Assembly: GCF_000190755.2 (NCBI RefSeq)
Contig: NZ_JH109152.1
Span: 2,799,576-2,863,575, forward strand
Direction: 5' to 3'
Source: Methylobacter tundripaludum SV96
Lineage (GTDB): Bacteria > Pseudomonadota > Gammaproteobacteria > Methylococcales > Methylomonadaceae
DNA: 64,000 bases
This document shows positions 25,431 to 55,851 of the stretch, in pieces. The translations under genes were made by a program, and so were the position numbers. Under the pieces are notes generated by a model. It ran no database searches, had not been told where the DNA came from, and saw only the letters and a list, made by a program, of their open reading frames with translations. Within the stretch, counting starts at the first letter, position 1; each line of letters starts with the position of its first letter.

Positions 25431-25620
25431 CCCTCTCCTGCTGGAGAGGGTTGGGGTGAGGAGATTAAAAACAACCATTTATATCCCCTCGGCAATTGCT
25501 CCTGCATTGCTCTACCTCCTGCATCCATGCAAGTCGTCATCCCAACCTTCTCCCTCAAGGGAGAAGGGGCCGGTACTTATGTAGATACCTATGCCAGTGG
25601 GAGAGGGCAGGGTGAGGGAG
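25431..25620. repeat. Composite repeat block upstream of the AlkB-like gene
   Basis: Three units occur in order. First is a palindrome CCCTCTCC-TGCT-GGAGAGGG (25431-25450). Then comes a 36-nt unit beginning TCGGCAATTGCTCC (25489-25524), of which a near-identical copy lies inside the methyltransferase gene at 50539-50575. Last is a perfect 10-bp palindrome CCTTCTCCCT-CA-AGGGAGAAGG (25546-25567). The block ends with GAGAGGGCAGGGTGAGGGAG, echoing the GGAGAGGG and GGGTGAG of the left edge. No gene is convincing here. Confidence 0.65.
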
Positions 25621-25630
25621 TTAAAAAAGC

Positions 25631-26329
25631 ATGTTGACGCCCAACCTAGTCCCCTTTGACGGCGAGCTTTACTTAATCAAACAGTTTTACAGCTTGCCGG
25701 AGTCCGACCGGCTGTTTGCACAGCTGCAAGCCGATTTGGCTTGGCAGGAAGAGGCCATTTTTATCTACGGCAGATGGGTAAAAGTGCTCCGTTTGATGTG
25801 CTGGTACGGCGATCCCGATGCCTGGTATCGCTATTCGGGCGTTAACCATCAGCCGCTGCCGTGGACTCCGGTGTTACAGGCCATCAGGAAGAAAGTGGAG
25901 CGGCAATGCCAATGCACCTTTAACAGCGTATTAGCCAATTTGTACCGGGACGGTAACGACTCTATGGGCTGCCACGCCGATGATGAAAAAGAACTGGGGC
26001 CAAATCCGGTGATTGCGTCATTGAGCTTGGGCGATGAGCGCTTATTCAGGCTGCATCATAAAGAAACCAAAGAAAAACTGGATATTGTTTTAGGTCACGG
26101 CGATTTGCTGGTGATGGCCGGAACCTTGCAACATCACTGGATGCATTCGGTGCCGAAAACCAAAAAATTGAAAACGCCACGGATCAATTTGACCTTTCGG
26201 ACAATTAGGGCGGCCTTGGCAACTGCTCCATGCAGTCGTGATCAAACAGCGCCATCGGCTCATGCGGAACCGGCAAATATGCTATTAAACCACTCCACCT
26301 CAAACCCATACGGGAAAAGCCGGTCATGA
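25631..26329 (+). CDS. AlkB-like 2-oxoglutarate/Fe(II) dioxygenase
   Basis: Oxidative demethylase family for alkylated nucleic acid bases. The 232-aa protein has the Fe ligands HADDE (HxD) and a distal His in HHWMHSVPK, plus the 2-oxoglutarate Arg segment PRINLTFRTI near residue 185. The IYGRWVKVLRL and WYRYSGV segments resemble the ALKBH2/3-type group. The core should end soon after TFRTIR. The last 40 residues, starting with the repeat-encoded LATAPCSRDQ, are not family-like. The stop overlaps the next gene by 4 nt. Confidence 0.88.
   Translation: MLTPNLVPFDGELYLIKQFYSLPESDRLFAQLQADLAWQEEAIFIYGRWVKVLRLMCWYGDPDAWYRYSGVNHQPLPWTPVLQAIRKKVERQCQCTFNSVLANLYRDGNDSMGCHADDEKELGPNPVIASLSLGDERLFRLHHKETKEKLDIVLGHGDLLVMAGTLQHHWMHSVPKTKKLKTPRINLTFRTIRAALATAPCSRDQTAPSAHAEPANMLLNHSTSNPYGKSRS
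26216..26240. repeat. GCAACTGCTCCATGCAGTCGT repeat in the AlkB-like gene tail
   Basis: It contains GGCAACTGCTCCATGCAG followed by TCGTG. The same core occurs at 55743-55768 (one base different within the core), in inverse orientation at 36172-36193, and in longer form at 25489 and 50539. Here it is read as codons of the dioxygenase C-terminus. Confidence 0.65.
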
Positions 26330-36103: not shown

Positions 36104-36237
36104 TTCACCACGAAGGCACGAAGGACGCGAAGTTTTAGAATTGCGTAGGGTACGCACAGCGTGCTTTACGCGACTGCATGGAGCAATTACCGATAGCTCA
36201 ACCTATAAACTTAAAATCTTCGTGCCTTCGTGGTGAA
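36104..36237. mobile_element. MITE-like composite element with perfect 20-bp inverted ends
   Basis: Ends TTCACCACGAAGGCACGAAG (36104-36123) and CTTCGTGCCTTCGTGGTGAA (36218-36237) are perfectly complementary. Inside are a decayed copy of the 28246 palindrome (36145-36169, GTAGGGTACGC...GCGTGCTTTAC) and a copy of the TGCATGGAGCAATT unit (36172-36193). Thus three repeat families are stacked in 134 bp. No coding capacity is present. Flanking TTA/TTTTTA bases do not give a clear target duplication. Confidence 0.7.
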
Positions 36238-49992: not shown

Positions 49993-50940
49993 ATGTCTGC
50001 CAATGAAAATGGCGATCGCATGAATGAAGAAGCACAAACCGGAATAATTCCACGCGAATACGGCCAGCCTTGGCCTGATTACGAACTGCTGGATGCGGGC
50101 GAAGGCAAGAAGCTGGAACGGTGGGGGAAGGTCATCACCATCCGTCCGGAAATCCAAGCCAATTTCAAACCGGGATGGCCTTTTGCCCAATGGCAAGACA
50201 TGGCGCATTGGGAATTTGAAGAACAATCTTCAACCCAAGGCCGCTGGCTTAACATCAAACCGCATGCTCCCGAACAATGGCTTATTTCCTACGGAAACTT
50301 AAACTTCGGCTTGAAGCTAACCAAATTCAAACATGTGGGCTTGTTCCCCGAACAGCAGGCAAATTGGCGCTTTATTAAGGAACGGGTGAGTGCCGGGCAA
50401 AAGGTCTTAAATTTATTTGCCTACACTGGAGCGGCGTCGCTGGTTGCCCGTGACAATGGGGCGGAAGTGACGCATGTGGATTCGGTCAGGCAAATGATCA
50501 CCTGGGCCAACGAGAATATGGAACGCACGACTGCCGGGATGCAGGAGGTAGAGCAATGCATGGAGCAATTGCCGAGTCATCTTTCCGGCATCAAATGGGT
50601 GCTTGAGGATGCGTTAAAATTTGCCCAACGCGAATTGAAGCGGGGCAAACAATACGACGGTATTATCATGGACCCGCCTGCCTGGGGACTAGGTGTCAAA
50701 GGCGAAAAATGGAAGCTGGAAAATCACCTGTCCGGCTTGATAGAAACAGCTTATGGGTTAATGAATCCGGGGGCTTTTTTAATTCTTAATACCTACTCGC
50801 CTAAAGTAGAGCCGGCGGATTTGGCAATGTCTGCCCGGCAGTATTTTTCTGCAAATCAACTGGAAATAAAACAACTGTGGATGCGGACAACAACGGGTAA
50901 GGAGCTGTATTGCGGCAATTTGTTGCGGGCGGTCAAGTAG
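49993..50940 (+). CDS. Class I SAM-dependent methyltransferase, RlmI/RlmK-related
   Basis: The 315-aa protein lacks a PUA domain. It has a beta-rich N-terminal region (WKVITIRPEIQANFK-like) and a Rossmann domain with VLNLFAYTGAASLVA, THVDSVRQMITWANENM, the catalytic IIMDPPAWGLGVKGEKW and LILNTYS. The substrate is probably RNA but unproven. Residues about 183-196 (MQEVEQCMEQLPSH) are encoded by a dispersed repeat and look like an in-frame insertion between two conserved strands. The stop TAG lies in a palindromic repeat. Confidence 0.88.
   Translation: MSANENGDRMNEEAQTGIIPREYGQPWPDYELLDAGEGKKLERWGKVITIRPEIQANFKPGWPFAQWQDMAHWEFEEQSSTQGRWLNIKPHAPEQWLISYGNLNFGLKLTKFKHVGLFPEQQANWRFIKERVSAGQKVLNLFAYTGAASLVARDNGAEVTHVDSVRQMITWANENMERTTAGMQEVEQCMEQLPSHLSGIKWVLEDALKFAQRELKRGKQYDGIIMDPPAWGLGVKGEKWKLENHLSGLIETAYGLMNPGAFLILNTYSPKVEPADLAMSARQYFSANQLEIKQLWMRTTTGKELYCGNLLRAVK
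50539..50575. repeat. Dispersed repeat unit inside the methyltransferase gene
   Basis: The 37 nt starting ATGCAGGAGGTAGAGCAATG equal the reverse complement of 25489-25524 except for one extra T. Two copies at this identity 25 kb apart, one intergenic and one coding, show a mobile or copied unit. Confidence 0.85.
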
Positions 50941-55489: not shown

Positions 55490-55851
55490 CGTTGTGAGAG
55501 AAGGCGATTAAAAGTGCGGTTTAAACTCAAGGGAAACGCTCACTCTCTGTACTAATCGGTCCATCGCCATTCCGGCAGAGATTCACTCCGGGCAAGCACT
55601 CCGGGTTAATGAAAAAGCCGTTTCAGGCGAATTTTCGAGCGGGTAGACAGGGGATGTGCGTATGGAAAAAACAGCCTTGCACGATTAACAAACGGGGTGA
55701 TTGAGCTACGCAATGCGTTGAAGCTTGATATTCGATGACTTATCGGCAACTGCGCCATGCAGTCGTGGCTCTGTCGGGATGACGCGTTGTGTCGATTACA
55801 TTGCCTGGATTCAACTCATAAGCGCAATAGTCGGGTCAGCCCGACCTTGCG
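55490..55851. other. Gene-free stretch with two repeats
   Basis: No credible gene is visible. It contains a GGCAACTGCGCCATGCAGTC copy (55743-55768) of the repeat also found at 26216, and a palindrome GTCGGG-TCAG-CCCGAC (55830-55845) 7 nt beyond the stop of the M23 gene, which may be its terminator. The remainder shows nothing recognisable. Confidence 0.6.

Follow-up and report, generated by a model that had tools for sequence, protein, structure and literature searches.

A repeat within a methyltransferase gene

The window (i.e. the whole stretch of 64,000 nucleotides that was analysed) contains a SAM-dependent methyltransferase gene, the open reading frame of which at 49993-50940 (i.e. the METHYLTRANSFERASE of this report) matched Methyltrans_SAM above the cut-off and RlmK/L- and RlmI-type rRNA methyltransferases below their cut-offs. 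The original prediction was that a dispersed intergenic repeat lies in frame within this gene, 37 nt at 50539-50575 having been matched, apart from one extra base, to the reverse complement of 25489-25524. This match was confirmed, the extra base being a T, and the in-frame repeat was borne out as one of 13 such copies detected in 12 genes by open-frame and codon scoring and family scans. The proposed unit of 36-37 nt was part of a real repeat, but the true unit is 48 nt (Table 1; 50527-50574 is an alternative placement as one A is ambiguous). The insert encodes TTAGMQEVEQCMEQLP, corresponding to residues 179-194 of the 315-aa product.

Orthologous loci were compared after dropping 6 of 30 as distant paralogues. 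Relatives had been expected to be shorter at the insert, and 16 of the remaining 24 loci (including that of the window) were empty, the encoded segment being absent from these orthologues without the repeat, as the prediction had set out to be checked. Single 48-nt inserts were present in three loci (the window's genome, G040 and G027). Four loci had compound inserts, consisting of 96 nt in G036 (a second copy, in another frame, inside the first), 117 nt in G030 (two copies and a further piece) and 99 nt in both G047 and G037 (another repeat within hairpin 1, as judged by eye). A different insert of 24 nt in G034 resembled a decayed short form of the repeat. Alignment of filled (..CGCA/CGACTG...TTGCCGA/GTCATC..) and empty (..CGC/AGCCACC..) alleles, with junctions marked by slashes, gave a difference of +48 nt with at most one ambiguous base and, on the evidence of these alignments, the methyltransferase insert is a gain. 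The orthologues of G039 and G048 (i.e. L091 and L092) start with GGRVMQGAQ and GGRIMQGAQ in the alignment, resembling an additional copy of the element at the N-terminus.

An AlphaFold2 model of the methyltransferase, generated from a shallow alignment of 18 sequences and with a mean pLDDT of 69, placed the insert within residues 171-203, all of which had a pLDDT of <50, between a strand (residues 158-162) and a helix (residues 205-216). As modelled, the insert is not a confident core element of the fold.

Table 1. Positions of the methyltransferase gene, the element and its relatives in the window, and of composite copies in the genome
Feature	Position	Strand	Description or evidence
SAM-dependent methyltransferase gene, 315 aa, carrier of the in-frame repeat	49993..50940	+	Methyltrans_SAM; distant RlmK/L and RlmI similarity
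Element, 48-nt form (CGA - hairpin 1 - GAGGTAGA - hairpin 2 - CGA)	50528..50575	+	Filled and empty orthologues differ by exactly 48 nt; 16 additional aa predicted
Hairpin 1 (CTGCC GGGA TGCAG)	50531..50544	+	4/5 pairs in the methyltransferase copy; family covariation
Unpaired linker GAGGTAGA, contains GTAG	50545..50552	+	Site of nested copies in other elements
Hairpin 2 (GCAAT GCATGGAGCA ATTGC)	50553..50572	+	T-A/C-G covariation
Intergenic copy	25489..25536	-	48 nt via an extra T in CGACTTGC
Short form CGACTGCATGGAGCAGTTGCCA, 22 nt	26217..26238	-	Left 12 nt and right end; within an oxygenase open reading frame
Short form CGACTGCATGGAGCAATTACCGA	36171..36193	+	Between listed open reading frames
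Short form CGACTGCATGGCGCAGTTGCCGA	55743..55765	-	Between listed open reading frames
Composite-subfamily copies	G000 C1:359427, C1:2429886, C3:53558 and nine others		

Structure, copies and distribution of the element

A 20-nt core of the repeat matched twice in the window (0 matches in 100 shuffles) and 129 times in the genome at up to three mismatches (63 forward and 66 reverse; 4.85 Mb in 3 contigs), with 0 genomic matches for the reversed pattern. A genome-wide count had been named as a check on the prediction and this number is far above two. A DNA search with the 121 bases around the insert gave at least 43 places including itself (40 of 154 candidates scored), and the 42 other places were aligned over about the same 50 bases.

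Reading of 99 of the 129 copies revealed a general plan of 47 or 48 nt: CGA, a 5-base stem closed by an NGGA loop, GAGGTAGA, a 5-base stem with a 9- or 10-base loop, and CGA. The linker lies directly before hairpin 2, an imperfect palindrome that has GTAG at its 5' foot. All fetched loci were screened with a pattern that left the stems free, and pairing was assessed in the 80 distinct elements so picked. Stem cells were paired in 97.4% of cases and 40 cells, in six of the ten stem pairs, carried changes on both sides. Neither value was reached in any of 500 column shuffles, and the number of pair types was reached in 1/500, these shuffles ignoring relatedness. When partners were slid by 1-3 bases as a control, at most 50% of cells were paired and at most 20 cells, in four pairs, were changed on both sides. 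Examples, taken from elements other than those with an extra T (CGACTTG), are the replacement of CTGCA/TGCAG by CTCCA/TGGAG or CGGCA/TGCCG in hairpin 1 and GCAAT/ATTGC versus GCAAC/GTTGC in hairpin 2. The nested copy of G036 had, by eye, wholly other stems (CCCCA/CGGGG with 4/5 pairs; ATCGC/GCGAT), with linker and ends kept. A structure grammar independent of stem sequence produced 249 hits (74 distinct, owing to overlapping loci) and none when these sequences were reversed. In its strict form this grammar recovered neither window copy because of a mismatch in hairpin 1 of one and the extra T in the other. The covarying stems, the altered stems of the G036 nested copy and the structure-scan hits indicate that the conserved feature of the element is its structure together with the linker. 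The ends are partly inverted at best (CGACTGC and GCAGTTGCCGA) and no autonomous relative was seen among the neighbours of 80 listed loci.

Chance similarity or an assembly artefact, an explanation of vanishing probability for which nothing was found in favour, was refuted by the copy number (129 versus 0 in the control), by the same insert in the independent assemblies G040 and G027, and by the covarying stems.

The shorter relatives predicted at 26216, 36172 and 55743 were real, being 22-23-nt forms at about 26217, 36171 and 55744 that join the left 12 nt to the right end. Six such forms were found in the genome, three of them in the window, using one pattern with at most 2 mismatches. One is held, in reverse orientation (ATAPCS), by the C-terminal stretch of a 2OG-Fe(II) oxygenase reading frame at 25631-26329. 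Twelve copies form a composite subfamily whose left half differs, being a CCACATCC..GTGG hairpin, often with an inverted TTGCTCCTGCA arm. Six copies (G000 C1:277, 540170, 1119266, 1508862; C2:1541628; C3:162392) have identical near flanks and seem to ride in a multi-copy element; the copy at 540170 is located close to the 3' end of an ORF that looks transposase-like by eye. By the same means, many intergenic copies were observed to sit inside other dispersed palindromes.

The core was detected in 122/237 genomes of the family, representing 20/29 genera, and in 53/369 genomes drawn from the class (the window's included), representing 45/272 genera, with one control hit seen. Among the matches listed (80 of 117 stretches) were Methylobacter, other Methylococcaceae, Methylomonas, Sedimenticola and Thiohalomonas, as well as MAGs labelled Endozoicomonas and Lysobacteraceae. 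Seven records of a plasmid collection matched in all, Pseudoalteromonas replicons among them, and no match to the element was found in phages. The first 35 nt of the element also occur in the BREX pglX gene of Moellerella and Salmonella plasmids (L423:2501-2535, NZ_CP093250.1; NZ_CP133280.1); this piece is in frame in Moellerella pglX, the one gene read.

Insertion into other genes, target sites and nesting

Curated cut-offs were exceeded by five of the other carrier genes, i.e. LeuS (TIGR00396), MurF (TIGR01143), FlgJ (TIGR02541), oligopeptidase A (NF008159) and a formyltransferase (NF005414). The remainder encode a nitrate-reductase-like (NasA-like) molybdopterin protein, an FAD oxidoreductase (Pyr_redox_2), a VWA protein, a 2Fe-2S-ferredoxin-like protein (below cut-off), an ATP-grasp protein with two copies and an ABC transporter that is CydD-like by eye. 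Joined protein flanks of the insertion sites were compared with seven genomes of the same genus. Sister species without the insert at the same place were found for 11/12 carrier genes; no clean empty allele was available for the CydD-like site. All seven relatives lacked the insert in LeuS, and all seven were empty at the FAD oxidoreductase site and the first ATP-grasp site. The formyltransferase site was empty in all four relatives in which it was found and the ferredoxin-like insert, a difference of 51 rather than 48 nt, was absent from all six. The oligopeptidase A and FlgJ sites were each empty in five relatives and filled in two. The VWA site was empty in five, filled in one and double in one, and the second ATP-grasp site had no insert in six and 144 nt in one. 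The nitrate-reductase-like site was empty in five and compound in two, with a difference in the window's genome of 51 nt, not 48. For MurF, one relative was filled, one had a partial insert lacking the element and five were without. At the CydD-like site a long compound insert was common to two relatives and five differed. This in-frame compound insert (L174:305-2236) holds the element inside another palindromic repeat (VPKLLLGN...SQAGAWEL) and is shared by 2/7 sister species. A copy at the C-terminus of a siroheme-decarboxylase-like protein was present in 0/6 relatives. Differences of exactly +48 bp in the DNA were found for LeuS, oligopeptidase A, the FAD oxidoreductase, FlgJ, the formyltransferase, the VWA protein and ATP-grasp site 2 against G040. 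Judging from these alignments, insertions in one genome that are absent from every relative examined are best read as gains.

The predicted inserted peptide is 16 aa, DCMDAGGRAMQGAIAE or TTAxMQEVEQCxEQLP. The best leucyl-tRNA synthetase in the PDB (3zgz, presumably the E. coli enzyme) has a 16-residue gap exactly at the LeuS insert, which falls in the editing domain. The best PDB relative of oligopeptidase A had no clean gap and has its own, shorter loop at the insert site. Coding copies of the window's genome run one way in 12/13 cases. An orientation bias was dropped, since the copies in open frames at scan loci of other genomes were distributed as 14 versus 10; these 24 copies were drawn from 75 loci (the other 15 of 90 had short flanks and were excluded) by a pattern that selected the 48-nt form and with an open frame as the sole criterion.

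Selection of the coding copies for function, either of the 16-aa inserts or of mRNA hairpins, appears improbable. Inserts in FlgJ, oligopeptidase A, the VWA protein and the methyltransferase are common to more than one species, but two reading frames are used, both orientations occur in open frames of other genomes and the carrier genes are unrelated in function. The low-confidence position of the methyltransferase insert, in a model from few sequences, likewise resembles that of a merely tolerated loop.

Length differed between coding and non-coding copies. Among 85 copies with both ends, 13/13 coding copies were 48 nt, whereas the 72 non-coding copies, among which the C-terminal copy and a small number of uncertain copies were counted, comprised 50 of 47 nt, 21 of 48 nt and one of 56 nt. 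Fourteen of the 99 copies had been dropped from these length and flank counts for want of two canonical ends (12 with the other left half, one with a cut right end and one with a changed left end). When the 85 copies were reduced to 57 distinct contexts, with the CydD-like coding copy merged with a non-coding look-alike, the 48-nt form accounted for 12/12 coding but only 13/45 non-coding contexts (Fisher P = 7e-6). This form has one extra base, usually in the loop of hairpin 2. It was likely kept in genes by selection rather than by frame-directed insertion: insertion would be blind to frame, and only frame-preserving insertions would be retained, where the protein can accommodate an additional loop.

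The base preceding the element was A in 48/57 contexts and the base following it was G in 46/57. Both were present, defining an A^G target, in 40/57 distinct contexts as compared to a frequency of 4.8% for AG in the window. AG was also present at the insertion point of empty alleles for the methyltransferase site and for the FlgJ site (G027). No target-site duplication was evident in filled/empty pairs. A position-free test of 200 distinct contexts identified seven clear nested copies, all in the linker, with three at GCAGGA^GGTAGA (two being one MurF event in two species) and four at GAGGTA^GAGCAA; these two linker sites are among the element's seven AG sites. An eighth match, outside the linker, was discounted as weak (6/28 letters differ). 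Tandem contexts numbered 20.

Candidate mobilisers and known systems

These features very probably define a mobile element that is non-autonomous and 47/48 nt long, has two hairpins, CGA ends and a conserved unpaired linker, and is found in frame in conserved genes. It would move as single-stranded DNA with the help of a trans-acting enzyme, of which a Y1/HUH nuclease resembling the REP transposases is the probable type. For TnpA_REP, PMC8266576 describes cleavage at CT and a possible guide role of GTAG; the A^G target, read from the other strand, fits this cut site. By analogy, a Y1/HUH-type enzyme acting in trans on single-stranded DNA is the likeliest mover, at a shade below an even chance, because the hairpins are defined by structure, GTAG stands at the foot of hairpin 2, the target is CT (the complement of AG), no duplication is seen and nesting occurs in the unpaired linker.

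Eleven Y1_Tnp matches were found in the window's genome, ten of them over the cut-off and some RAYT-like by eye. Together with GTAG right before hairpin 2, as in REPs, and a target complementary to the CT site of TnpA_REP, these genes would suit a REP-RAYT system that is still living, with the element as an ordinary REP and one of the RAYTs of the window's genome as its mover. This explanation was judged unlikely: the element flanked 0/11 Y1 genes on both sides, one truncated gene having a longer relative of the element on one side; several Y1/RAYT-like genes possess their own, differing GTAG or GGAG palindromes (e.g. GTAGGTCGGGTTAGCGTAGCGTAACCCGAC); and the element has two unlike hairpins. 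Among these genes, L126, L124, L125 and L123 have mutually different flanking palindromes of their own. Over 38 Y1_Tnp loci in five genomes, element-related sequence lay within 1.5 kb of two, neither of them both-sided; a density of roughly 100 copies per 4-5 Mb is estimated to give approximately three by chance. Uncorrected for genome completeness, Y1 number was weakly correlated with copy number among genomes of the window's genus (rho 0.47, P = 0.02, n = 23); in another genus the correlation was not significant (rho 0.36, P = 0.12, n = 20). A genus with zero copies in 18 genomes had a mean of at least 7.7 Y1 matches, counts being capped at 17. The element is also present, in an open frame, within a RAYT-like gene (L339:434-1018) that is 59% identical to the one at L120.

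Mobilisation by an unrelated or lost enzyme, with many of the present copies being residues spread by descent and with the surrounding DNA, was considered rather unlikely. No convincing recurrent neighbour gene was found among 80 listed loci (of 117) in other genomes, where the biggest cluster was three ORFs overlapping the element itself and the sole Y1 match was a gene invaded by the element. This result, the missing link to Y1 genes and the identical flanks of some copies, which imply a ride in multi-copy elements, agree with such an explanation. Recent movement is nevertheless suggested by near-identical element sequences and by insertions unique to the window's genome (LeuS, FAD oxidoreductase, formyltransferase and ferredoxin-like, with 7, 7, 4 and 6 relatives without). 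The Y1 genes of five genomes, the neighbours of the 80 listed loci and the family-wide Y1 counts yielded no candidate for the mobilising enzyme, and a Y1/HUH-type enzyme acting in trans is retained as the preferred mover.

IS200/IS605-type elements have a hairpin at each end, make no target duplication and move by a single-strand mechanism. The element resembles these and their miniature derivatives in having a hairpin at each end, no evident target duplication and a possible single-strand mechanism, but lacks a strict tetranucleotide target, is very small and has no autonomous partner among the sequences searched. The absence of an evident target-site duplication in its filled/empty pairs also distinguishes it from a MITE of a DDE transposon.

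In-frame palindromic repeats as a kind are already established, according to the accounts of Rickettsia palindromic elements (RPEs) and of intragenic GTAG/CGTC REPs in PMC10969869 and PMC3733652. The original prediction correctly cited in-frame spread in Rickettsia but knew of no such description for this type of organism; other REP families outside Rickettsia are in print (PMC3733652), with intragenic REPs in O. terrae, Thauera and Thioalkalivibrio. RPEs are portrayed as short palindromic repeats that lie in frame inside unrelated conserved genes and between genes (PMC10969869, PMC3733652). The element shares this distribution, being both non-coding and in frame in unrelated conserved genes, and its orthologues without the repeat have an uninterrupted gene, not cleanly so for the CydD-like gene. 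Compared by description, it differs from RPEs, given as ~150 bp in a review, in its length of 47/48 nt, its two hairpins, its A^G target, its nesting and its occurrence in Gammaproteobacteria, where sister species show empty sites. GTAG-class REPs have GTAG at the 5' palindrome foot and a high copy number, and are mostly intergenic with some intragenic copies that add amino acids, in the account of PMC3733652. The element is similar in its GTAG foot, many copies and presence inside some genes; in contrast to these single palindromes of 20-40 bp, it is a fixed pair of unlike hairpins of 47/48 nt with CGA at both ends, rare 22-24-nt forms existing. It also differs from REP-RAYT systems in that no RAYT was flanked by it among the 38 Y1 loci. 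GTAGAGC, GGTAGA and words starting with 'Methylo' are absent from the main text of PMC3733652, in which consensus sequences are given in figures, and one family there could share the second hairpin. Enterobacterial RU repeats, as presented in PMC2759123, are small mobile repeats that form in-frame gene fusions and in this respect are like the element, but their units are 103-168 bp and of another structure. The element is not among the entries examined in the REP table of PMC2817692, and no description of its family was found in the literature searched; 14 papers contained fragments of its sequence but, from their titles, look unrelated. The same literature yielded no account of its anatomy of two hairpins, its filled/empty alleles, its A^G target, its nesting in itself or its breadth in Gammaproteobacteria.

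Our tentative reading, held at somewhat less than even probability, is that a structure-defined 47/48-nt element, mobilised as a single strand and present in many gammaproteobacterial families, would repeatedly write 16-aa segments into essential proteins and re-enter its own linker (giving modules of 16, 32 and 48 aa), with a mover that is not a cognate flanked RAYT. The best-known cases of in-frame palindromic spread are in reduced intracellular genomes, in which weak selection could account for them; the present cases are from multi-megabase genomes of methanotrophs that are probably free-living, and affect conserved enzymes such as LeuRS and MurF. Because filled and empty alleles exist in sister species, gain and tolerance are directly datable and testable. 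The element offers known proteins that carry, as a natural series, insertions of 16, 32 and 48 residues, and its hairpins are a well-defined substrate for a search for the missing enzyme.
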